From contig NC_083347.1 of NCBI RefSeq assembly GCF_019175385.1, forward strand, positions 120,846,124 to 120,910,123: a DNA stretch of 64,000 nucleotides. Direction: 5' to 3'. The notes below the pieces were generated by a model. That model saw only the letters and a program-made list of their open reading frames with translations, ran no database searches and had not been told where the DNA came from. Below are positions 15,791 through 63,900 of this stretch, in pieces. Each line of letters starts with the position of its first letter. Position 1 is the first letter of the stretch. The stretch is from Lycium barbarum (lineage: Eukaryota; Streptophyta; Magnoliopsida; Solanales; Solanaceae). The translations under genes and the position numbers were made by a program.

Positions 15791-17501
15791 CTAAACGATG
15801 GGGTAGGAAGCCAAAGTGGTTATCCCACAAAGACCACCTTCAATTCCAGTATCCCTTGCAAGTTTCATGTAACCATTTTCGCCCCAACTTGTACCCCAAG
15901 AATTCTTAATTAGCCAATATTTTGTGCCATCTTCATTTGTCCCATAGCCAATTATAGTAACTGCATGATTAAGTTGATCATCGCAACTTCCATCGTAAAT
16001 GCCACTTTGGTACATATGAAACTCTTCGGTTACAGCGATACCGATAGAGACGGGTTGTTGCGATGCGACTTTTAATAATGCTGATTCGCTCGATGGTAAA
16101 GTTTCGTAACGACTCATTTTTACGGTCGAGTCCATCCCCTCTTGGGCGCTCCTGCACGAATCTTGATATTCCTCGTAAGGGTAGTTGGATTCCAGCGCGA
16201 TTCCGCCATTTTTTACGATGAAATCATAGGCTGTTGTTATCAAACCGCCATAACAACCGTTGTTTTCGGTTGTGCAATCTAATAGCTCTTGCTCGGATAG
16301 TGAAATTAACTTGCCTGTTGAGAGTTTATTTGCTCCTTCCAAGGCTCCAACCGCCGCAAATGCCCAGCAACATCCTATATTTATAGGATCAGGTGACTAA
16401 TAAGTAATTAGAGATAGATTTGTATGATAAGCAGTAGTGTTTCTGTTCTAATTTTATGTGGCACTATTTCCTTATTAGCTTATCCCAAAAAGATTAACGG
16501 TTTTTCTAAATTTGAAAACAATTTCAATTTTACCTTTAATGACATGTTTTTATAGCTACAAAATCTCATGGCATATTTAAGACAACAAATTTCAAAAATC
16601 ATCTTAAACTCCATATGTAATCAAACAACACTGAATAATTGTAATGGATCAAATATTTTATAACCTTATAACAACTGTAACTAACCTACTCTAATAGGCT
16701 AAACCATATTGATAATGTCCTTAGATTCTTTGTCGATATTACTCCCTCCATCCCGTGATGCACTTTGATTGTGCACGAAACTAATTAAAGAAAGAAACAT
16801 TTTTTAAATTTGTGGTTTAAAAAAAGTCATAAATATTTGTGCAGCTATAAATCATCAAATGAAGAGTAAACTGAGAAGTTCGAACTTCAAAATTAAGTTA
16901 TTTTAAAAAATAGAAAAATATCATTTTTCTTATAACAAACTCTATGCGCATAAAGCCGCATAGAGGGAGTACTTGACAAGAAGAGAAAAAGTAAGAGTAC
17001 AACTAGTTAAACATTTTCATGAATGGGAAATTTTGACTTACCACATTGACCTTGATGTTTGACGTTAGTGACAGCATCACTCTTTCTCCAATCCATGATA
17101 GATGGAACATCACTCCTATTTTCATACTTGAATGATGAAAATATAGCTGGAGATGATTGCTGAGATTTTGAAGAAAACTTATTAAGTCCATGAGTAGTGT
17201 AGTACTTTATGAATTCCTCAGAAGTAAGATCAGCAAATTCGTTGATGCCTAATTTGTATGGCTTAGTCCCATTTTTGTTAAAAGACTCAATAAATTTCAC
17301 ATTCTCCTTAAATATATTCAATCTTTTCGCCTTTTCTGCATCATTTTCGTAAGTTCTTCCATGGCGCGCCATCCACAACTCATGTTTTTCCAACATGGAT
17401 GATGATTCTTGAAGGTTTCGAGAAGTGACTTCAGAAACATACATCCCAAAAATCACAAAAAGAACCACAAATAGCATCTTCCATTCAAGAACCAAAGCCA
17501 T
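15791..17501 (-). CDS. Papain-like cysteine protease, SAG12 group (gene 1)
   Basis: Two exons, 17501-17042 and 16374-15791, join across a phase-1 intron (donor GTAAGT, acceptor TATAG) inside the Gly codon before the active site. The product is 347 residues: a signal peptide (MALVLEWKMLFVVLFVIFG), an I29 prodomain with ERFNIN-type spacing (KRLNIFKENVKFIESFN) and GINEFADLT, then mature C1A protease starting near VPSIMDWR. The catalytic site is QGQCGCCWAF with Cys156; His290 in LNHAV; Asn311 in KNSWG; all are present. The GCCWAF form is typical of SAG12 relatives. There is no C-terminal granulin domain. The secreted or vacuolar thiol proteases of this group are linked to senescence and defence; that role is inferred from family. 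The ATG at 17501 was chosen because it starts the signal peptide about 90 bp downstream of a TATA box. Confidence 0.88.
16742..16969. mobile_element. Stowaway-like MITE in the intron of gene 1
   Basis: 228 bp flanked by TA on both sides (16740-16741 and 16970-16971). The terminal inverted repeats begin CTCCCTC at the left and end GAGGGAG at the right. It has no coding capacity. TIR and TA target duplication fit Tc1/mariner-derived Stowaway MITEs. Confidence 0.75.
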
Positions 17502-17591
17502 TGTAAAGAAAAAGAATTTTTTTTGTTGTATGTTGTAATATGATACTTTGATTGATAGGCTCACAATGATGTCCTTTGATATATGGGAGGG

Positions 17592-43378: not shown

Positions 43379-44856
43379 TTAAGCGATTGGGTAAGAAGCT
43401 TTCTTGGCAATTCCACAAAGTCCTCCTTTAGCATTGACATCTCTTTGCATTCTAATGTATCCTCTTTCTCCCCAACTAGTTCCCCACGAATTCTTCACGA
43501 TCCAATATTTCATACCACCTACAGTTTGTCCATAACCAACCGCTGTAACACCATGATCCAATTCAATTCCACAATGTCCTGTGAACACGCCACTAGAATA
43601 AAATTGAAAATCCGATCCACTAGCATCAATGGCAACGGATACAGGTTGGCTAGCAACGGCTTTAAGCAAAGCTGATTCGCTATTAGCTGGAACGTCTTCA
43701 TAGCCAGAAATCTTGGCAACATGGTTGAAAATTTTGTTTTTTTGGCAAGTGCTATTGATTCCCTTGTAAGGATAATTATATTCTGAAGTAATTCCATGAT
43801 TTTTAATGAACTTAAAAGCGTAATCCATGAAGCCTCCTTCACAACCTTCATTTGAACCTGTGTCACAGTCAACGAGTTCTTGCTCGGATAATGAAATCAA
43901 TCTACCAGTTTTGATCTTGTTAATTCCTTCTATAGCAGCCACAGTAGAAAATGCCCAGCAAGATCCTGCATTTTTACAATTTTGTATATATAATAAAAGG
44001 GAGTTTCAACGTGTGTGCTTGGCGGAATTTAAAATAATAACTGAGGGCATTTTGGTAATCTTACTGTTTGCTCAAGTAGTCTAAAATACTGTAGCTGAGC
44101 TTAGAGGTGGCTTTCATTCATGTTGCCAACATGTTTCAGCTTCTTACATTTCATATTTTCCCCAATTCTATGCTTTGCAATTCGGGAGTCGTTATAACAC
44201 ACAAAATTTGCTAAAAACAGATAAAGTAGGAACTACTTTTGCTAAAAACAATTCGGCTAGTATGTGTGATAATTTGGTTAGGCTTGATAACACAAGTCTC
44301 CCAGAGGATACTCCTATGAATTTTGTGATGACTTTATCTAGTATTGATACAATATTATCGACTTACTACGAAAAAATAGAAAGTAAAGCGCTAAAAGATT
44401 TGAAATTAAATTGTTTGACTCACCACATCGCCCTTGGTCTTTAATCATAGTAACCGCGCCTTTTCTCCTCCAATCCATGGTATATGGAACTGACACATTT
44501 TCATACCGAAAACATGTAGGTTTTATTCGTTGCTGAGATGATATTCTATATCCATTACGAATGCTCTTGAATTCCTCATTCGTAAGATCAGCAAATCCAT
44601 TGATGCCCAATCTATAACTCCGTGTTCCATTCCTATTAATTGATTCAATATACTCAAGATTTTGTCTGAATTTCTCGCGCCTTTCTGCTTTCTCTATATC
44701 ATCTTTGTATACACGTCCATACATCGCCATCCATTGCTGGTGTTTCTCAGTAATTGATGCTTCGTACAAAGTACGAGATGTGGCTCGAGTAATCCATACT
44801 CCTAACACTAGTAGAGTTGCAAAAGTGAGCTTCCAATTGAACATAAAAGCCACCAT
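43379..44856 (-). CDS. Papain-like cysteine protease, SAG39/SAG12 group (gene 2)
   Basis: Two exons, 44856-44424 and 43965-43379, with a phase-1 intron at the same Gly codon as gene 1 (donor GTGAGT, acceptor TGCAG). The product is 339 residues: signal peptide ([20 protein letters not shown]), I29 prodomain ([29 protein letters not shown]), mature domain from about [13 protein letters not shown]. The catalytic site is GRCGSCWAF with Cys147; His282 in LDHGV; Asn303 in KNSWG; GCEGG is present; ends ASYPIA. No granulin domain. Predicted secreted or vacuolar endopeptidase. Compared with gene 1, the residue before the catalytic Cys is Ser rather than Cys. The shared intron position and motif layout show that the two are duplicates. 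The substrate is not known from sequence. Confidence 0.9.
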
Positions 44857-45828: not shown

Positions 45829-45839
45829 CACTACAAGAA

Positions 45840-46600
45840 AAATCCGAATTGCCAACGGATTTTACCAACAACCCAAATTCGTTAGCAAATTAGCAACAAA
45901 TTACTAAAAATTAATAACCAAATTGTTTTTTAGAATTTAGCAAGAGATTTCTAACGGATTACCAACCAAAATTTTACTAACTAAATACTTTAGTTGGTAA
46001 ATAAGGCGGGAAAAAATGGCGCCTAATTTAGCAACTTCCTACAAACGGTTTACCAACCGAAATATTACCAACAAACACCTTTCATTGGTAATATTACCAA
46101 CGGAGTATATATCGGTTGGTAAATATGATAGTAAAAAATAGAGTACAGTTTATTAACAGATTACCAACAAATTACGATCCAACCATTTACCAACGACGGA
46201 ATTTTGTTGCTAATTTTACCAACCAATTAAAAATACGTTGGTAAATTACCAACGGATTGTTATTTGTTGGTAAAGTGGCTAACTAATACTCAATCGGTTG
46301 GAAATTGTTACCAACAGATTAAGATTTTGGTTTGTAAATTACTAACATATTAGAATTAGTTAGTAATATACCAACCGATAGATAAACCATTGGTAAAATT
46401 TACCAACCGATACGTCTTTAGTTGGTAGTATTACATACAAATGATAAATCAGTTAGTAATTGCTACCAACTGGGATCAAATTCATTAGTAAATTACCAAC
46501 TGGTATTGAAACAGTTGGTAAATTTACCAAACGGGAAGTTAAATTGGTTGGTAAATCACCAATTGGTGTTGAAACGTAAATATAAGGATGGTGCTAAATC
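45840..46600 (+). repeat. Left subterminal repeat array of the CACTA element
   Basis: Many short copies of ACCAACGGATT and GGTTGGTAAATT in both orientations, spaced at roughly 20-40 bp. CACTA elements bind their TnpA protein at such subterminal repeats. The reverse array is at 55880-56545. Confidence 0.8.
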
Positions 46601-47084
46601 AATTGATATTTTTCGACGAATTTAACATTAAACAATAAATTTAGTGATGGATTCTACATCAATTGATATTGTTTTATGAATCTAGCATTTAGTGGTAAAT
46701 CTATCTTTCTTTATATATTTAATTGTTTAATATTACGTTCACGGAAAATATTACTAGTTTTGTCAGCTCGAATGGTTACCATGATTCATTCTTAATTGTT
46801 TTTTGACATTAAAAAAATAGTACTTACAGTAGAAAGACTACTAGTTATTTGTTGTATTGCTCCAATTATGCCAATATTGGCATTAATAGTACGTAAATAT
46901 TGAAACTCGTTGTTCAAACAACTATTTAGATCTAGAGTTCCTATAGTTTCTCGTAAGGCTTGTTTGGAAGCTTGTTCTCAGACTTGATTAAATGTCCTTT
47001 GTTGTTCAAACTGAATCATTTTGTTTTCGTGGTTTTCTAATCGCTTTGAATCTCTTAGCCTTATCTGATCTCTTTTTATGCTTT

Positions 47085-47201
47085 TTTTATTGAGCCGAGG
47101 GTCTTTCGGAAACAGCCGTCCTACCTTGATAGGAGTAAGGTCTGCGTACACTCTACCCTCTCCAGACTCCACGTTGTGGGATTTCACTGGGTTGTTGTTG
47201 T
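47085..47201 (+). mobile_element. TS-type SINE, 3' part
   Basis: GAGCCGAGGGTCTTTCGGAA through GGTCTGCGTACACTCTACCC to GGGATTTCACTGGG and (TTG)n is the typical 3' body and tail of the TS SINE of Solanaceae. The tRNA-like head was not found, so it is 5'-truncated or nested. Confidence 0.7.
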
Positions 47202-47647
47202 TGTCTAATTTTTTTAAAGTCTTACAAACTGAATTAATCAAATTCGTTTTTTGTCAATCTATCTCATAATATCCATTCACTAGCTCAAGACTGCTAAAAT
47301 TTTGTATCTCCTTTTTGTAAGCGAGAACGAGTTTCTTATAACTTAACATCTTTGGCTAGATGCGTCTCATCCACAATTGCATAGTTGTAGAGAAGAATTA
47401 ATTGGTGCCTCCACTTGGGATCCACGAGTACAGAGAGACTATTTGGAGCATCCCTTTCTTAAGCTGGCGGATTTGGCAAAAGATTCCCCCTTGTAGTTTG
47501 TGGCTTCTGTAAAGGATCAGTTTATTCATTTACCCTTAAGATTTTGCATATGTATTTTTCACAAAATTCCTTCTCTTGTAACAATAATAGGTGTCGTCGT
47601 AAGGCCAACAGAGGGACATCATAAGAAGAGGATAGAAAAATACATAT

Positions 47648-48700: not shown

Positions 48701-49024
48701 TTTGATTTTTATTGTTTTAAAATTATTTTTGCTATAAATTATGATCTTTATCATTGGTATAATGATAATTATATTTTATGTTATCATGTTTTCATGTTGT
48801 AGTGATTTTTCTAAAATATACAAATAAAGAAGTTATTTTTCGGGGTTTTTACAATGCAAATTCAAAAACTTCATTGTGATTTTGCTTGGATTATCAGGTG
48901 GTGCTCGTAAAATGACATTTTTCAATTTGCGAACCAAACACCTCAAATATTAAAAAAAGCACTTTTGGCCTCAAGACCGCTAGGCCAAACAGGCTCTAAG
49001 TCATGTGATTAGCTACTAGTAACA

Positions 49025-49286
49025 CTCCCTCCGTTCACTTTTACTTGTCCACTTTGAACTTTTCACGCTATTTAAGAACTAATAAATGAAGTGCATAATT
49101 TACCAATGTGCCCATATTAATTAGTGCATATTCTTATTGGATTTGAATAATAATTTGAAGTGAGTAATTAATACTATGGGTAAAACAGGAAAAATAAAAT
49201 TATCTTCTCTTGATATGCTAAAAGTGACAAGTAAAAGTGAAAATATATTTTTAGAATATTGGACAAATAAAAGTGAACGGAGGGAG
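49025..49286. mobile_element. MITE with 26 bp inverted ends
   Basis: The left end CTCCCTCCGTTCACTTTTAC and the right end GTGAACGGAGGGAG agree over 26 bp with one mismatch. TA follows the right end; the left flank is CA. 262 bp, inside the CACTA element and just upstream of its transposase. Confidence 0.8.
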
Positions 49287-49384
49287 TATAATATAAGAAT
49301 TAAAAAAAAATGCAAAAATACCACATATCAAAAACGAAAGAAGTCATTTAAATTCTACAGTGTCCAAAGAAAAAAGGAAAAGTT

Positions 49385-49592
49385 ACAACGATGCGCCAAA
49401 ACCCTCAACCCCAATTAGATAGACTCCGCGCCATTATTTCAGTTTCAACCCACGATCACAGTTCACAATTCCATTACTGATATGTAAATCCTTTCCATGG
49501 TTTTTCTCAATTAAAACATAATCTCAAGCTAGGGTCTCCCCAAATTCATCTGTGCTCTTGGATTCTCAATTGCACAATCTATTTGGCTAAGT
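49385..49592 (+). other. Possible 5' untranslated exon of the CACTA transposase
   Basis: Ends CTAAGTG|GTAAGTATTC, a good donor site. A matching acceptor TTTACAG lies at about 50131-50137, just before the transposase ATG. Inferred from splice sites only. Confidence 0.4.
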
Positions 49593-49924
49593 GGTAAGTA
49601 TTCTTTATCAATCTTACTTTTCCCTTGTTTGTTTGATTCGATCAATCCTCTGCTGATATGCTACATTTTTTTGGCTAATTATATAGGTTGTAGTTTATGG
49701 GTTAGGTTGTGTTTTCAAATCCCCTTGATAAAGGTAAATTATCTAAGATAGTTGTGAAGTGGGCTCAAGAGTTCTTTTAGGTCTACTGTTTTCGAACCCC
49801 CTGTTGCATAACACTTCATTTTGAAGCTTGTGCTCATAATAACTGGATTTGTTGTTGAACATTTACTCTGATCTTTGGTTACCAAATCAAAATAGGTTCT
49901 ACACTAACTTACTTATTTAGATAC

Positions 49925-49950
49925 ATTATATATATATATATATATATATC
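49925..49950. repeat. (TA)n microsatellite
   Basis: About 12 TA units in the putative intron before the transposase. Confidence 0.8.
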
Positions 49951-50157
49951 GTCGTAGAATAAAACTTTTGATTCATAGTATGTCCCAATAGGAGTTATTT
50001 TATGAAGTTTTGATTAAACTAAGCTACATAAAGAAAAAGAAAAGAAGCAAGATACTACTGCAAAAGAAAAGAAGTCTTGATACTTAGTTGTAAATTTGTA
50101 TAAATTATAATACTCTTTACTCTTCTTATATTTACAGAAAGAAGGATTGTAAGGAAA

Positions 50158-51245
50158 ATGAGTTCAAATTGTCAATGGATGTACAAAAGGTTATCTGGAG
50201 GTCTATATCATCCAGAATTTGTAACGGGTGTACAACAATTTATTAAGTTTGCCATGAATCATCCGGAAGGGAGGGATGGTGAGAGACTAAGGTGCCCATG
50301 TAACTGAAAGAAATGTTAGAATAGAAACTTTGAAAATGTTCATACAATCCATGCACATTTATTGAGCGATGGTTTTAAACCGGACTATCATGTATGGTAC
50401 TTGCATGGAGAAAATGAGGTTAGAGGAAATATAGATCAACATGAAAGGATGCACAACTGGGATCATATAATGAATAACCCACCGGTGAATGTTGGTGCAT
50501 TTGATGAGCCTGGACCATCTACTTCACATCATAAAATGGTCCATGAGGCTGCTGGTACCTCATTCGATCAGCAAAACCATACACTGGTTATAATGTCAAT
50601 GGCTATAAATTTCACACTAAAACCGCAGTTCTTCTAGAGCATCTAATAACAGCGGCGTATGCATAAAAGGAACCAACTACAGTGCAGATGACTATGACTA
50701 CTATAGTGTGCTTACTGATATCCTTGAATTGGAGTACAAGGGTAGTACTCGATAAAGAGAACTGTTTTATTAAGTGTGAATGGTTTGATCCCACACCAAA
50801 AGTAGGAATGAAGATTCACCCGCAATATAAACTTGTGGATGTCTACCATCGAAGGAAATTAAAAAAGTATGAACCATTTGTTTTGGCAATGCAAGCGGCT
50901 CAAGTTTATTATGCCACTTATCCTAGCTTACGATGTGATAAGACTGACTGGTGGGGTGTGTGCAAAACAAAATCTCGGGGTATTGTGGATATGCCCCCAT
51001 CTTCTTCACAATCACCTCCGGCTGATGTTGTAGAGCCATTCCAATTTGATGAAGATGGTTTAACATTTGATGTGGTACCCGACAATGAAACTATTGTGCG
51101 GAATGATCCAAATGGCGAATTCATAAACTTAAGAGACGATGATGATGATTTAGATGATGAGGTAGAAATTCATGATGAATCTGAATTAGATGAAGATGGT
51201 GATAATGAGGATGAAGAGGCATATGATGCAAGTGGCAGTGAATAG
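50158..51245 (+). pseudogene. CACTA transposase, internally deleted (Transpos_assoc plus DUF4216)
   Basis: ATG 50158 starts MSSNCQWMYKRLSGGLYHPE, the transposase-associated domain of TnpD/TNP2 proteins. Two stops (TGA and TAG) fall in RCPCN*KKC*NRNF, normally RCPCxxC. The reading continues VHTIHAHLLSDGFKPDYHVW to about 50480. Near 50585 it passes directly to NVNGYKFHT and GTNYSADDYDYYSVLTDI, then FIKCEWFDPTPKVGM and PFVLAMQAAQVYYATYPSL, which is DUF4216. It ends in an acidic tail (DDDDDLDDEVEIHD). The central catalytic Transposase_21 domain (several hundred residues in full-length proteins) is absent, and there are two frame changes. It cannot be an active transposase. Confidence 0.85.
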
Positions 51246-51677
51246 AGTCAAAATGCTCCAATCTCTTCAAATAAGAGTTAGAGTGATTGAAACATAGTCT
51301 GTAAGTTATATCTATTACTATTGGATTTTATATTTCTTGCCGGTAAAGTTCTTGTATTTTAGATCTCGCCGCTTTTATATTTCGTTGTGACCAACTTAAG
51401 TATTTGTATTTAATAGTTTTCAGGTTGTCTGTTTGAAAAGTCATCCCTCACTCTCATCTTTATCAGAGAAGTAGTTGATTCTAGAACTACATTTAGAAAT
51501 AGTGTTTATATATTTATCTTCCATGTCTGGATTAACACATGAATTCCTTTAGTTTTTAGAGCCACCTTGTTATTTGGGTGATATATTAATTAATTACTTA
51601 CTCGTTATAATTAGACCAGATCATGATTCATTAATTATGTTATTTCTTCATCTACTTGTAGCTTTGAAGTTGCAGAT

Positions 51678-51947
51678 ATGGCACCTAGGAGAGGTGGACC
51701 AGGTAGATATTTTAAAAAAGAGGAATGCAAATCCACTGACATCTCCTCCTATGTGGAGTCCGCACCTAATCAAGCACCACTATAACCTGAATCGTTGGAC
51801 TAGAAACGCCACAATCAGTCGCAACAGTCAATAGATTTGTACCATCATCATCTTCCGGGCTTGATACACATGAAGATGAAATTAGATCAAGAAGTTCTTC
51901 AAAAACAAATGATGGTACTTGTATCCTAATTGAATTCATCCTTGGAG
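51678..51947 (+). pseudogene. TnpA-like gene, first recognisable exon
   Basis: ATG 51678 opens MAPRRGGPGRYFKKEECKST and, after a frameshift near 51785, VNRFVPSSSSGLDTHEDEIR. It ends at a GTAAGAG donor at 51948. In CACTA elements the second gene commonly starts MAPRRG and encodes the subterminal-repeat-binding protein. A coiled-coil exon at 55453-55723 would complete it, with FIE exons lying between. Confidence 0.5.
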
Positions 51948-53166
51948 GGTAAGAGTACAAGTACCATGCCATTTACATTTTTTTAGTTCATTTTTGTTTC
52001 ATGCTTATATTATGAGTATCATTGCATCTTTGGAGGGAACTTCTTATTTTTTTTTCAATATGGTAGAACACTGTTTTGCAGATCAATATATGCTCATGAA
52101 GTGGTCTCGTATAGGGGATACCTTTTTATTATATTTTATATGAAGTAAGGTTGGTAGGTGTTCAAAGAATGAGGTTCTGATATGAAATTTACGATTAAGT
52201 TTGAAAATGTGATACTAGTTTCTTTTTGAACTCTAACATGAAGAAATCCATAGTAGAAATCCATATTCTCATCCCAGATCATTTTTTGTTAGGCGACTTC
52301 ACGTACCCTTTGTCATTAAATGAGCAAGGGCTTCGACTAAAATATCCTAAACTCGCACCCCATTGACATATTTTGATTTTTTTTTTCAGTTTGTCATAAT
52401 CATTATTTCACCAACTAAATCCTAGTTCATAGCAGCATCTGGTAACTTATTGGTTTTCCGGTATCCTCTTTCTGAATAGGAAAAGATGCGCAAAAAGTTG
52501 ATGGATTTAACTTATATGTAATGACGTCCACTATCATTGTGTTTTAACTTGTTGTAGCAAGTAACTTGCCTTAATATTTTGCTTATTGTGTTATCTTTTA
52601 CATGATTTGATAGTAAAAATTATTATGTTCATTACTTATTGAAGCCTGGAGCCAAGTAATAAAGTAGCTTGGGCAGTCACAAAAATCTTAGATGAGAAAC
52701 TGGACCACGGTCATAATTAGTCCATTAATCCAGAGACAAAGGACTTCTAATGGGAGGATATTAAGGTGATACTAATTATTATTTCGTGGTTTCTTCTAGC
52801 AAACTTGAATTTACTATTATATAACTGTCCATGCCAAAGATAATAATTTTCAGAATTGGGTATAAACTGTAAATCTTGTACCATCTCTTCACATTGCGGA
52901 GTTATGCTATTATATATCTTGTCGCATTTCTTATCAAACCTGAGAGTTATGCATGATGGTAAATTTTTATTGGTGAAGTTTAAATTTAGAATTTGGACAG
53001 GTGCATGCTCCTGTAAATGTGGTGTCTTTTCTTGGTCTAGATATGTCATCTGAGAGTTGTTAAAAAATACAGAACTGAAAAAAGATGACAGTAACAGAAG
53101 AATCAGACTGCTAGCATCAGTATACATTTCTACTTATAAGTTTTTAACTTTTTGCTGGTTTGTCAG

Positions 53167-55288
53167 GTTACTGTATACCAATGTCTCGAAGATGGTGTTA
53201 TTGCTGTGCTGCAGTCTTATATCGATGAAGACGTAAGAAGTTGCAAGTACTCAGTTGTTGCATTTGAACTTTACATATGTCATCTCGTATGCTTAAAAAG
53301 CTTTTGGCCTTTTCCATGTGCTTTGTTGATCAGAAAGATGAATCATTTGACACTGTAAGTTGGGCTTGCAATATTGATGGGAGTCTATTAGTAGTGGCTG
53401 GATAAAGAAATCGAATTCTTCGCGTTATTGATGCTGGCAATGAGAAGATACACAAGGTCTTGTACATGAAATCTTTCATTCACACTTTACATGGTTAAAC
53501 AAAAGTAACTGCTTCTTTAGTTATAAAAAATGAATATCTGCAAATGAGTTCGTAACATCCATCTAATTAATCTTTATCTGAACACTAAAGTATTTCCTTT
53601 ATTCCATGATCTGGTCCATCTTAGTTCCTCATGATATGCGCACGTTAAGTTTCCCGTAGTGATTCGTTCCATGTTAAGTTGTATTAACAATACAAACTTG
53701 AAAGATAAAGGTGCTCTTAAAACTAGTTACATGTTAACTTAATAGCATTTGTCTATTCACCTTCGTTAATCTACTTGTTTATGATTGAACAGAGCTTTGT
53801 TGGGCATGGAGACTCAATAAACGAAATTAGGACGCAAGCCTTGAAACCATCTCTTGTAGTATCTGCCAGCAAAGTATGTTCCTTAAGTATCCTTCTCTTT
53901 CTTTCTTAACCCTTCCTCAAAAGGGAAAATTGCATTTTCCTCTAAAATGTGAAGAAATTTTTTCAACTGTTGCAAGATGTATGTAGAGCATCAATCAATT
54001 TTGCATCTATTTCACATGGCATATTTTAATTATCACGAATATTCCAGGATGAATCCGTTCGCTTGTGGAATGTCCATACTGGAATATGCATTTTGGTATG
54101 TGCTGGTGCTGGGGGTCACCAAAATGAATTACTTAGTGTGGTAAGTTACTCTGTTAGCTGTGGCGGCCTACTCTAACGATGGAGCTGGTGTTGTCAACAA
54201 TACTGGGAACTAGGATTTTGAGCTTATCCGCTGGTCTGTGATGGTTGTAGGACTTCCATCCTTCTGATATATATCACAGTGCTAGCTGTGGAATGGATAA
54301 CACTATGAAGATCTGGTCAATGAAAGGTAAAATTCGTAACACTTTCCGTTTTACATAGATTGTTGAAGACATATGATATACAACTAACTGACTATGTATC
54401 ATCATCTACTAAAACTTTGGAGAAGAGAAAAAAGGGTGTGATCTCTATAGGAGCAACTTGTAATTGCTCATGTTCTCAAGGCTTCTCCAGAACCTTTGGG
54501 ATGATGTTAATGTTGTGCTTACTATATGACTTTACCTTTTTGGATTTGGTGACTTGTCACCTATATACAGTGAACCTGAGACGACTACCTGGACGTGTTG
54601 AAACTAATGACTTGCACCCAATCTACTACATGGAATACATTAATGTATTAGCAAATATTGCTATGAGGATATCTTTGTCCTCGGTTACGAGTTTTGAAAT
54701 GAAGCCAATAAAGACAAAGATCCAATTGCAGTTATAAATGCACCAACTACCGAGAAGGAAATATGAGCCAGCATGCAGTTATATAGACATTCACATATTC
54801 TGGTGTTGACAATGCTTGTTATCTAGACTGCTTTACTACCCTATTTATAGTCACGCATATCAGCAAATATTGTACTGTTATTACTGGTAGGAGGATGTAG
54901 TGTTGGCTGTGGATCATATTTCTATTGTATCATCTATTCCATTGGTGCTCAGTGGTTACACAAGTTTGAAAAAATAAGATGAAGTAACATCAATTTGAGC
55001 TGACATTTCTTTTCTGATGAACTTCTTGTGTTGCAGAGTTCTGGACATATGTAGAGAAATCATTTACTTGGATGGACCTTCCTTCCAAGTTCGCCACAAA
55101 ATATGTTCAGTTTCCAGTGAGTATTGTCTTGTTGCTTCTCTCCTTCCCTGCCTTTTTCCTTCTGAAACTTCGGTTGGAAATTTTTCCTTGCTGTAAAATC
55201 CTTTTCACCCTTTCAGATATTCATAGCTTCAGTCCATAACAACTACGTTGACTGTAACAGATGGCCTGGTGATTTCATCTTGTCCAAG
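53167..55288 (+). pseudogene. FIE: Captured FIE (Polycomb ESC homolog) gene fragment, 7 exons
   Basis: Seven exons with intact GT/AG sites: 53167-53232, 53334-53456, 53793-53873, 54048-54140, 54251-54326, 55037-55116 and 55217-55288. Joined, they stay in one frame: YQCLEDGVIAVLQSYIDED; KDESFDTVSWAC; IHKSFVGHGDSINEIRTQAL; SKDESVRLWNVHTGICILV; DFHPSDIYHSASCGMDNTMK; EFWTYVEKSFTWMDLPSKF; HNNYVDCNRWPGDFILSK. These are the WD40 blades of FERTILIZATION-INDEPENDENT ENDOSPERM, the plant ESC/EED homolog of the PRC2 complex that deposits H3K27 methylation. One nonsense codon, TAA at 53403-53405, interrupts exon 2 of the set (VVAG*RNRILRVID). The first and last exons of FIE are missing. Retained introns mean DNA-level capture. 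It lies in sense orientation in the TnpA-like intron. Confidence 0.85.
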
Positions 55289-55452
55289 GTGAATGGATTG
55301 ACGTGCTTACTACTAAGTTATTTCTTTTTTCCAATTGTTCTGCTATGTGAACCTATCAAAAAACTGTTCTGCTGTATGAATTCTTGGTTGGCATTAGTTC
55401 CTTTCCTTGGAGATATGTACTATTCTGAATTCGGAGAGGGGGATTCAGACTA

Positions 55453-55723
55453 ACATCTAGACTTTGATGCTCGAGTGCAAGAATCTGTTGGACATCGTTT
55501 TCAAGAAATGAAGCATGAGATAAGAGAAGATATCAGACAAGAAATAAGGGAAAAAATGCGACAAGTATTGCATGTAGAAATGAGACATGAAGTGCAACAA
55601 GAGGTGCAAGAGCAAGTTAATCAGATACTTCAAGCACATTGTTCGGGCATCATAGTTCGCTTACCTTCACCTCCTTCTGGTAGACCTGACACGTCCTCGA
55701 ATAATGAAACAAGTCATATTTAG
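55453..55723 (+). pseudogene. TnpA-like gene, C-terminal coiled-coil exon
   Basis: Reads DFDARVQESVGHRFQEMKHE, then IREDIRQEIREKMRQVLHVE and HEVQQEVQEQVNQILQAHC, a highly charged heptad-like helix, ending in a Pro/Ser tail and TAG at 55721-55723. Typical of the C-terminal helix of CACTA TnpA-like proteins. Whether it is still spliced to 51678-51947 cannot be told. Confidence 0.55.
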
Positions 55724-55879
55724 ATTAATTTTAGATTGTTTTATGTTAGACACACTTTGGATTGTTTCTTCAACTCTATGATAGATGTTATTATTCATGA
55801 AATAAGTAAATGTTTTTTTTTTGGATTTGTTTTACTGCTTTCAGATTTTTCAAAGCTTTATATTAATATAAATATTAAT

Positions 55880-56545
55880 CCTTTGGTTAGTAATATTTAC
55901 CAACAAATTAACGATCAGTTAATAAATTTGCTGACGGTTAGTAACAAAAAAATTTGTTGTTACTAATATTACTAACCAATTACTAACGTAATTTAGAAAA
56001 CTAAATAATCGTTCTTGCTAACGTTTCGAAAATTCGTTGGTAAATTACCAACATAACTTTTCTGTAACTAAAATTTCTAACCAATTATCAATGTGTCTTG
56101 AAAATTTTACTATCGGACTTGCCAACCAAATTATTATCCATTAGTACAGTTGCTAACGGAATACCAACAACATTTCTTTTTTGTTACTATAGTTACCAAC
56201 AAATTACCTACGCAATTGAATGATGAAAAATCAAATTTACTAACTCCATTTCTATTAGTTAGTAAAGGTACTAACGATATACCAACCGAAAAATGGTTAG
56301 TGAATTTACCAACGAAAATTTCAGGGCCAAGCTTCAAAAATTAGCAACAACATCTTTGGGTGTTTACCAACCAATTTTTAGTTGGTAATTTTACTAACAA
56401 ATTAAAATTGGTTGGCAAAATTTACCATCGAGCCTTTTAGCAACGGATCAATATCAGTTGGTATTCAGTTGGTAACTCAATTTGCCAACCGATTTGATCA
56501 ATTTACCAACGGAATTTTTTGTTGGTAATCAGGGTTTCTTTTGTA
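55880..56545 (-). repeat. Right subterminal repeat array of the CACTA element
   Basis: Dense TTACCAACxAA and GTTGGTAATTT copies in both orientations, mirroring 45840-46600, up to the terminal TTTGTAGTG. Confidence 0.8.
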
Positions 56546-56548
56546 GTG

Positions 56549-60908: not shown

Positions 60909-63900
60909 CTACGGAAAGTTATCTTGAAAGTTCTCTGCTTGCTGTTCAAACAAAAATGGGTACTTGGATTTCATATCCTCCTCGACTTCCCATGTAGCTT
61001 CCTCAACCTTCTGGCTCCTCCACAAGACTTTCACTGAGGCTACTTCCTTAGTTCTCAACTTGCGAACTTGACGGTCAAGAATGGCTACGGGGTTCTCCTC
61101 ATAAGTCAACAAATCCTTAACTGTTATAGTATCAGCCGGAATAACCAACGACGGGTCTCCAACACACTTCCTCAACATGGACACATGAAACACGGGATGT
61201 ACAGCAGCCAAATCTTGTGGCAACTCAAGTTCATAAGCTACTAGACCAACCTTTCGTAGAATTCTGTAAGGTCCAATATATCTGGGACTTAGCTTCCATT
61301 TCTTGCCAAATCTCATAACACCCTTCATGGGTGAGACTTTAAGGAACACCCAATCATCAACTGAAAATTCTAAGTCCCTTCGCCTCACATCTGTATAAGA
61401 CTTCTGGCTACTCTGAGCCGTTTTCAAATGCTCTTGTATTAACTTGACTTTCTCCATAGCCTGATAAACCAAATCTGGTCCTAACAACTCTACTTCACCA
61501 ACTTCGAACCAACCAATTGGTGATCTACACCTTCGCCCATACAGAGCTTCAAACAGTGTCATCCCAATGCTAGCATGATAACTGTTATTATAAGAAATCT
61601 CGATAAGAGGCAAGTGATCATCCCAATTACCTTTGAAATCCAAGACGCATGCTCTCAACATGTCCTCCAAATTCTGAATAATACGCTCTGCCTGGCCATC
61701 GGTCTGCGGATGAAAAGCTGTGCTAAGGTTCACCTTGGTACCCAATCCTTTCTGAAAAGATTTCCAGAAGTTCGCTGTAAACTGAGCACCACGATCTGAA
61801 ATAATGGACACTGGTGTCCCATGCAATCTGACGATCTCATTAACATACAGCTTGGCATAATCTTCTACTGAATGTGTGGTCTTTACTGGCAGGAAGTGCG
61901 CCGACTTAGTAAGCCTGTCAACGATCACCCAAATAGAGTCATGTCTCCTGGCTGAGCGAGGTAGACCTGATACAAAATCCATATTGATCATTTCCCATTT
62001 CCAGACAGGAATATCAATATTCTGAGCCAAACCACCAGGTCTCTGGTGTTCGGCTTTCACTTGCTGACAATTCGGACACTTAGCTACAAAATCCGCCACA
62101 TTCTTCTTCATATCGTTCCACCAGTAAATCTCCTTAAGATCATGATACATCTTAGTGGAACCTGGGTGGATGGAATACCTGGAATTGTGAGCTTCTGACA
62201 TGATTCGCTCTCTGAGCCCATCTACATCTGGAACACACAATCTACCTCGGTACCTCAAGGTACCATCATCTCCCCCTTGTTCGAAAGCCATCGTCTTATG
62301 CTTGTGAATCCCCTTTTTCAGCTGCAACAAGTAGGGATCATTAAACTGTTTCTCCTTGACTTCAACTACTAAAGAGGAAAGAGCCCTACTCTGAACAACC
62401 ACACCACCATCCTCGGAGTCCAAAAGTCGAACTCCAAGATTGGCCAAACGATGAACTTCCTTTGTCATAACTCTCTTATCCACGTCCACGTGGGCTAAAC
62501 TTCCCATGTACCGCCGACTAAGAGCATCAGCTACAACATTCGCTTTCCCCGGATGATAAAGAATATCCACATCATAATCCTTAAGCAATTCGAGCCATCT
62601 CCTTTTCCTAAGATTCAGCTCCCTTTGTTTGAAGATATACTGCAGGCTTTTATGATCTGTGAAGATATCAACATGCACTCCATACAAATAATGACGCCAT
62701 ATCTTAAGTGCAAAAACTACAGCTGCTAACTCTAGGTCATGAGTCGGATAATTCTTTTCGTGAACCTTGAACTGACGAGATGCATAAGCTACAACCTTAT
62801 CATGCTGCATTAAGACACATCCGAGACCAACTCCCGAAGCATCACAATAAACCATGAACCCTTCGGTTCCCTCTGGTAAAGTCAAAACTGGCGCAGAAGT
62901 TAGTCTCGTTTTTAATTCCTCGAAACTACGCTCACAGGCATCTGACCACTGAAATTTAACTTCCTTCTTCATCAGCTTGGTCAATGGTGCTGAAATAGAC
63001 GAAAACCCCACTACGAAACGTCAATAATAGCCTGCTAGACCCAAGAAACTGCGGATATCTGAAACTGATGCGGGTCTGGGCCAATTCTTAACGGCCTTAA
63101 TCATCTGAGAGTCAACCTGAACACCCTCACCAGAAATCACATGACCTAAGAAGGCTACTGATTTGAGCTAAAATTCACACTTAGAGAATTTTGCATACAA
63201 CTTGAGGTCCTTAAGAATCTGAAGAACTATACAAAGGTGTTCTGCGTGCTCGGCCTCACTACGGGAGTAAATGAGGATATCATCTATGAATACAATGACA
63301 AAGAGGTCGAGGTATGGCTTGAAGACTCTGTTCATGAGGTCCATAAATGCTGCTGGGGCATTGGTCAAACCGAAGGACATGACACAGAATTCGAAATGAC
63401 CATATCTGGTTCTAAAGACTGTTTTAGGAATATCTTGTCCCTTAACCTTAAGCTGATGGTAACCTGATCGGAGATCTATTTTGGAGTAACATTGGGCACC
63501 CTGAAGCTGATCAAATAAGTCATCTATTCGTGGAAGAGGGTATTTGTTCCTGACCGTGACTTTATTGAGCTGGCGATAGTCAATGCACATGCGCAAAGAA
63601 CCATCTTTCTTGCGAACGAAAAGGACTGGGGCACCCCATGGAGAGACACTGGGTCGGATAAAACCCTTGTCTAAAATATCTTTAAGTTGAGCCTTAAGCT
63701 CGCGTAATTCAGCTAGAGCCATCCTATAAGGTGGAATAGATATAGGTTTCGTACCTGGGAGTAGGCCAATTGCGAAATCAATTTCCCTATCAGGAGGGAT
63801 TCCGGGAAGATCCTTGGGAAAAACTTCTGGGAACTCATTAACAACAGAGACTGACTGAAGAGTTGGGGTCTAGGAAGATGAATCCCTAACCCGAACGAGA

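Follow-up and report, generated by a model that had tools for sequence, protein, structure and literature searches.

The DNA analysed here, referred to as the window, is a stretch of 64 kb (C11:120846124-120910123), and the genome searched comprises 1.67 Gb in 164 contigs. The window harbours an element that belongs to the CACTA (En/Spm) transposons, with TIRs beginning with CACTA (45829 and 56548) and subterminal repeats at both ends, and this element carries a multi-exon piece of the gene for FIE, a chromatin repressor subunit. In the following, the element in the window is called the window copy and a second FIE-bearing element, at C1:3694347-3710483, the C1 copy. The features of the window copy, all on the plus strand, are as follows (positions in the window).

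45829..46722, plus: 5' terminal region with the TIR CACTACAAGAAAAATCCGAATTGCCAAC (end at 45829, CACTACAAG...) and subterminal ACCAAC/GTTGGT repeats; the closest family 5' ends elsewhere match at 92-95%
50161..50563, plus: remnant of the start of the transposase gene (Transpos_assoc, PF13963), with stops; Pfam
50564..50569, plus: breakpoint of a deletion of about 2.6 kb of the Transposase_21 core, six bases matching both sides; comparison with C1:3701876-3704477
50682..51242, plus: 3' part of the transposase (DUF4216, PF13952); Pfam
51679..51946, plus: tnpA-like exon starting MAPRRGG, disrupted by stops, followed by a possible donor GTAAGA
about 52643..52765, plus: tnpA-like exon (...NPETKDF*WEDIK) with two stops and donor GTGATA, directly upstream of the insert; homologous C1 exon
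52811..55453, plus: FIE sequence captured by the element, starting in the intron ahead of exon VTVYQ and ending in the one behind GDFILSK; limits of homology to the C6, C4 and C11 FIE copies and junction alignments
53167..53232, plus: FIE exon VTVYQCLEDGVIAVLQSYIDED; this and the other FIE exons by scripted exon location
53334..53456, plus: FIE exon KDESFDTVSW..., with the stop at 53403-53405 that is also in the C1 copy
53793..53873, plus: FIE exon SFVGHGDSINEIRTQALKPSLVVSASK
54048..54140, plus: FIE exon DESVRLWNVHTGICILVCAGAGGHQNELLSV
54251..54326, plus: FIE exon DFHPSDIYHSASCGMDNTMKIWSMK
54848..54948, plus: stretch of FIE intron also found, without the rest, in six relatives; genome search
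55037..55116, plus: FIE exon EFWTYVEKSFTWMDLPSKFATKYVQFP
55217..55288, plus: FIE exon IFIASVHNNYVDCNRWPGDFILSK
55453..55723, plus: last exon of the tnpA-like gene, encoding a coiled coil (LDFDARVQESVGHRF...), resuming at the 3' junction of the insert; junction alignment
55880..56548, plus: 3' subterminal repeats and 3' TIR ...TTTCTTTTGTAGTG (end at 56548, ...TTTGTAGTG)

A FIE segment in place of a tnpA body

The seven FIE exons (53167-55288) join to 591 bases, 197 codons in a single frame with one stop only, at 53403-53405, and all 14 exon borders are intact, AG preceding and GT following each exon; this had been described from the letters alone in an earlier sequence-only reading, as had the sense orientation of the exons with tnpA, and both descriptions hold. 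The FIE peptide, with X at the stop, aligned end to end with EED when compared with solved structures (E 1.9e-41), its best matches among 204 proteins compared were P0113 (173 of 196 residues identical) and P0106 from Solanum stenotomum (172 of 196), and Pfam returned WD40 and beta-propeller models, with PF00400 (WD40) alone above the cut-off. The captured exons thus contain the WD40 propeller match expected of the FIE/ESC/EED family, but not a complete open gene, comprising the exons from VTVYQ to GDFILSK only and including one stop; further FIE exons, the first and the last among them, were not found in the 64 kb window. Chance resemblance to FIE can be rejected. In tblastn, the seven real FIE pieces scored 51-67 bits versus a best score of 23.9 bits for 200 dinucleotide shuffles of 52811-55453 searched with one FIE protein, 155 of which gave any match.

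Elsewhere in the genome at least five other FIE exon sets are located, a lower bound obtained by comparing fetched stretches with two FIE proteins and counted as exon sets, not as whole gene models. Protein search placed them, together with one fragment, as follows.

C6:14982806-14988889: FIE exon set (C6)
C4:15214235-15220041: FIE exon set (C4)
C11:4380827-4387152, 4397164-4403494 and 4427980-4433735: three FIE exon sets in an array (C11a, C11b and C11c)
C11:4390582-4391382: FIE fragment in the C11 array (stretch C11:4376001-4436000)

Over the seven captured exons the C4, C11a and C11b copies keep an open frame and AG/GT borders; C11c shows a gap of one base. In C6, to which the captured piece is closest, the donor after the exon VTVYQ...IDED reads AT for GT, which may reflect different splicing or a failing copy. 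The C6, C4, C11a and C11b copies display two alternative first exons, SKVPIGCEPVVGSLTPSKKKEYRV... and SKIPIGCEPMVGSLTPTN... (each with variants), separated by about 0.9-1.5 kb; in C6 these are located at C6:14988883-14988710 and 14987317-14987108, with the same layout in C4 and two C11 copies, and the Capsicum protein P0108 contains both kinds of first exon in a row. A FIE-like protein of Lycium ferocissimum is close to one of the C11 copies.

Alignment with these loci including their introns, which the sequence-only reading had proposed as a check, extends the captured piece beyond the exons. While the identity as FIE stands, the piece is not confined to 53167-55288 as had been assumed and reaches from 52811 to about 55453, outer intron stretches included: homology begins at 52811 (C6, C4, C11c) or 52823 (C11a, C11b) and ends at 55454 (C6, C11a, C11b), 55453 (C11c) or 55441 (C4). 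As the homology includes introns, genomic DNA was what got captured, and the proposal of a capture of FIE by a CACTA element at the DNA level is thereby, and by the five other exon sets, supported.

On the 5' side, tnpA homology continues through the exon ending at 52765 into its intron, and on the 3' side the FIE-like sequence runs into the tnpA coiled-coil exon, with AAC at 55452-55454 fitting both sides. The homologue of exon 52643-52765 in the 5' tnpA of the C1 element reads PETKDFYWEEFK, and the next exon of that gene bears the start of the Transposase_24 domain (E 5.5e-8), from which it follows that the FIE segment stands in for the Transposase_24 body of a tnpA-type gene; measured on the same gene, about 1.3 kb of tnpA body is missing between the borders of the insert. 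The exons therefore do not simply lie inside an intact TnpA intron, contrary to what was originally written, since they replace the body of the gene and are preceded by a further tnpA exon (52643-52765). A search with window 55440-56548 gave 48 matches, of which those in the window and C1 copies alone reach back to 55440; 12 full-length relatives (88-93%) begin at 55452/55453, and the remaining 34 matches are partial or weaker.

The position of the FIE exons between transposase gene and coiled-coil exon was read correctly at the outset, but the gene itself is a remnant: Pfam detects Transpos_assoc and DUF4216 only, about 2.6 kb with Transposase_21 being gone in comparison with C1. Lacking the catalytic core, the window copy could move at most by means of the transposase of a relative. 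Its ACCAAC/GTTGGT words form two clusters, one at about 45.9-46.6 kb and one at about 55.9-56.5 kb, and occur only singly in other places; the ends at 45829 and 56548 are of one CACTA family with many members, not of two kinds of element. A dispersed short repeat at 47059-47204 inside the element, which occurs at nine further places in the fetched C11 and C4 stretches, has a look that we take to be SINE-like.

A second carrier and the probable mosaic history of the elements

When the other copies of the CACTA family were searched for the insert, as had equally been proposed, one more carrier was found, which brings the FIE-bearing elements detected in the genome to two. The C1 copy extends over 16.1 kb with both TIRs (the 5' TIR at C1:3694347) and the same FIE-tnpA junctions; a direct repeat CAC/CAC borders it, but the flank is rich in CAC and the repeat might be due to chance. 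From window 50564-56548 versus C1:3704478-3710483, up to the 3' TIR, the two elements are 97.2% identical. The C1 copy keeps a long open transposase frame of 784 residues from stop to stop, which contains Transpos_assoc, Transposase_21 (E 1.2e-79) and the beginning of DUF4218; the frames behind it hold the end of DUF4218 and DUF4216, so that all four domains of a tnp2 transposase are present. The C1 element contains two tnpA-type genes, a 5' one with Transposase_24 (C1:3697027-3697378) and the FIE-bearing one at the 3' side, and similar second tnpA pieces are seen upstream of relatives at C11:28.21, C3:129.49 and C9:102.64 Mb.

Divergence between the window and C1 copies is uneven along the elements. 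In the front, the 5' end differs by 5.5% and 48822-50564 by 5.0%; in the rear, the values are 2.6% for 50564-52811, 1.7% for the FIE segment and 2.0% for the 3' end. The 5' end of the window copy shows no special closeness to C1, other members lying at 4.4% (C8), 4.6% (C11:10.2) and 5.8% (C6:12.2), and its 3' end is nearest to C1, at 2.0% versus 6.3-6.9% for six other members. This pattern points to one rear half having been joined to two different front halves; with front halves much less alike than rear halves, recombination or conversion between family members would have brought this about, in either direction. A breakpoint of the mosaic at the transposase deletion was considered and rejected in favour of about 50.6-51.3 kb, because C1:3703285-3705217, with 1.4-1.9 kb of comparable transposase region, is 98.6-98.9% identical to the relatives at C9:102.65 and C11:28.22 Mb and the difference between the window and C1 copies steps from 4.2% at 50564-51063 to 2.2% thereafter.

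The flanks of the window copy, TGC before and ATG after, would make a target repeat ATG/ATG only with one extra C; a duplicated C next to such a repeat, or recombination between elements, is possible. The C8 relative has the three bases CTG on either side. As to the expectation that both ends belong to one element, common family membership is established, yet the window copy is without a clean target repeat and the pair of elements is mosaic. At C9:116479135-116479579, a match of 445 bases is 97% identical to the last 445 3' bases of the element, closer than the 12 full-length relatives, and the genome search reported no FIE match there.

Age and decay of the captured exons

Between the window and C1 copies the captured exons differ by 2.0% and the introns by 1.7%. 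Among the host copies C6, C4, C11a and C11b, divergence is 2.7-4.2% in exons and 7.1-10.5% in introns, and C11c is separated from the other host copies by 5.1-6.3% in exons and 11.7-12.8% in introns. Assigning changes to branches by comparing the captured copies with five agreeing host copies (seven rows, gapped columns dropped) gave 21 of 590 exon and 64 of 1900 intron positions for changes common to both captured copies (Fisher P 0.80), 10/590 and 24/1900 for changes in one captured copy only (P 0.42), and 3/590 and 50/1900 for the nearest host copy, C6 (P 0.0009). Protein-altering changes made up 13 of the 21 common exon changes, with 79% expected under neutrality (P 0.06), and 21 of 31 on all captured branches (P 0.12), a slight non-synonymous shortfall that is not significant and does not establish purifying selection on the captured exons. 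Pairwise dN/dS was 0.52 for window-C1 (8 and 4 changes), 0.27 for window-C6 and 0.03-0.11 among C6, C4, C11a and C11b. The stop in FIE is common to both captured copies, and the C1 copy has additionally lost one splice donor. Judged from its sequence, the captured FIE is a decaying fragment, the exons of which have drifted like non-coding DNA, and the weak constraint suspected before agrees with an exon rate equal to the intron rate after capture. Youth is the best explanation for how intact the exons look; some early constraint, for example before capture, may also have played a part.

How recent the capture is depends on the comparison chosen. The inserts of the two elements, 1.7% apart, fit the notion of a fairly recent event; the nearest host copy, about 10% off in introns, does not. 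At an assumed rate of about 7e-9 substitutions per site per year, the intron distance between the window and C1 inserts (JC 0.017) would date their separation to roughly 1 million years ago, and the distance from C6 (JC 0.105) would put the parting of the captured lineage from that of C6 at about 7-8 million years. In an unrooted tree the captured copies are placed beside C6 (support 97/96) on a long stem, which makes C6 their neighbour without marking it as the donor.

A trace of FIE occurs in CACTA relatives that are free of the insert. The intron stretch at window 54848-54948 was recovered in 6 of 12 such relatives, with a length of about 100 bases in five and 60 in the C7 copy, and in the C8 copy this piece adjoins the tnpA body. 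Either an earlier capture followed by different deletions or two events can account for it. That the capture predates the two full copies, one ancestral event having been succeeded by different deletions that left the intron piece in six relatives, is a plausible view to which slightly less than an even chance is given. All six relatives are of the same CACTA family, the sequence flanking the piece agrees on either side in five of them, a derived base (C in ATTTCTATTG) sets five relatives, window and C1 apart from the host copies, and the genome search found the trace, outside the FIE loci, at no sites beyond CACTA family members. The piece is nevertheless short, at its other positions the relatives side with the host copies, and the sequence after the piece differs between branches. 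Left of the 100-base FIE piece, a zf-RVT frame on the minus strand (C8:87560463-87560912) lies inside the C8 relative and is presumably of LINE type.

Route of capture, possible use and related systems

It is very probable that a CACTA element lost the middle of its tnpA gene and that the gap was filled by about 2.64 kb copied from a host FIE locus, the exons having drifted since. A break inside tnpA of a CACTA (En/Spm) element might have been repaired by copying the FIE stretch, the three bases AAC matching at the 3' junction. The rear half with FIE is present in two elements, probably through exchange of halves by recombination or conversion between family members. As the FIE exons have drifted and bear the common stop, most likely no FIE protein is made, and the captured piece might at most be transcribed as spliceable non-coding exons of tnpA-type transcripts.

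An alternative route is offered by the Pack-CACTA model from Arabidopsis, in which two CACTA elements flanking a FIE gene would have been mobilised as one with loss of the facing ends. Such a process has been described for CACTA elements (PMC13317346; PMC8903248), and the apparent exchange of front and rear halves in the family would be in line with it. The fit is weaker, since the borders of the insert sit at colinear places of a single tnpA with about 1.3 kb of body missing between them, a position that two independent deletions would have reached by luck only, and no CACTA sequence was detected beside the FIE loci in the fetched stretches (E 1e-10); this route is considered improbable. That the window is the original home of FIE, into or around which a CACTA element has inserted, or that two different elements supplied the ends, can practically be dismissed, the absence of first and last exons from the 64 kb, the fuller exon sets on C6, C4 and C11, identical FIE-tnpA junctions in a second element and ends of one family outweighing the missing target repeat and the unequal front (5.0-5.5%) and rear (1.7-2.6%) divergence from C1, so that the sole FIE gene at its ancestral position, named as a refutation of the sequence-only reading, is not what the window holds, though the ends may have a mosaic history.

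A codon border marks both the end of the tnpA exon at 52765 and the start of the first FIE exon. A translated TnpA-FIE fusion appears unlikely, because stops occur in both element copies in FIE as well as in the tnpA exon upstream of the insert, where the same two are found. In the protein collection no chimeric junction was found, the only one of 23 candidates to pass E 10 (P0096) reading through an ordinary FIE locus. The captured segment contains 2622 21-mers, of which 429 have an exact counterpart in C6, 297 in C4 and 505 in the C11 array; for the 451 wholly exonic ones the figures are 117, 56 and 122, respectively. Small RNAs made from it might therefore, at least in theory, target host FIE.

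A use of the captured piece, with tnpA-type transcripts including FIE exons giving rise to small RNAs or decoys that lower host FIE (PRC2) and relieve silencing of the element, would be compatible with the sense orientation, the 14 AG/GT borders, the matching codon borders and the exact 21-mers, and a soybean CACTA element makes spliced chimeric transcripts from captured fragments (PMC1947982). Considering, however, that exons and introns change at the same rate with no clear selection signal, that a stop is common to both copies and one donor is lost in C1, and that only two FIE-bearing elements were detected, such a use is judged very unlikely. Slightly less credence still is given to an elaborate version, according to which a transposon with an open transposase frame would have swapped its tnpA body for phase-compatible PRC2 exons, the spliced non-coding or small RNAs of which might dampen FIE and loosen Polycomb control where the element could move, FIE having meanwhile multiplied to at least five exon sets.

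Comparable systems have been described. Jozin, a CACTA element of Chenopodium (PMC8978399), likewise combines a tnp2-type coding region with host gene fragments, including those of flower-development genes; its AP2 pieces are located outside the coding sequence in the 5' region, unlike the 2.6 kb multi-exon fragment that replaces the tnpA body here. Tgm-Express1 of soybean (PMC1947982) is similar in its CACTA ends and its captured exons and introns with usable splice sites, which there lead to chimeric transcripts; with 5.7 kb it contains fragments of five genes, resides in intron 2 of F3H and has demonstrated expression, in contrast to the one gene, known from sequence, in the present elements. 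Pack-CACTA elements (PMC8903248; PMC13317346) equally move host coding DNA between CACTA ends, and captured coding DNA is found in this position here. Pack-TYPE elements are, however, scored as devoid of a transposase match; the long open frame in the C1 copy and the clear remnant in the window copy both contain transposase domains, so that by the packFinder criterion (PMC8903248), as examined with Pfam, neither FIE-bearing element would count as a Pack-CACTA. Animal Pack-TIRs (PMC8277862) resemble the present case in that filler DNA was copied into TIR elements and short matches (median 2 bp) mark the junctions; they differ, besides the host, in a median gap of 4.6%, the exchange of about 1.3 kb of tnpA for 2.6 kb representing a larger share of the element. 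A maize Helitron carries a fragment of fertilization-independent endosperm protein 1 (FIE1) (PMC2575219) and is thus a plant transposon with a FIE fragment as well, although of another transposon class and species and with one element listed.

While a literature search found no published report of this FIE insert, which does not exclude the existence of one, CACTA gene capture, chimeric splicing and FIE1 in a Helitron are already in print, and FIE in these CACTA elements constitutes a well-resolved further example. With donor family, both junctions, insert-free relatives and a second carrier in one genome, the steps of capture, namely replacement of the tnpA body, exchange of element halves and decay of the captured exons, can be directly read. 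Furthermore, the captured gene encoding a chromatin repressor subunit provides a concrete place to ask whether captured exons feed back on transposon silencing, to which the answer here is most likely no.

Outside the element, the window contains two genes in pieces on the minus strand (15791-17564 and 43379-44856), presumably of papain-type cysteine proteases, and, also on the minus strand, retrotransposon polyprotein frames at 60909-63722 with reverse transcriptase, RNase H and integrase recognised by eye.
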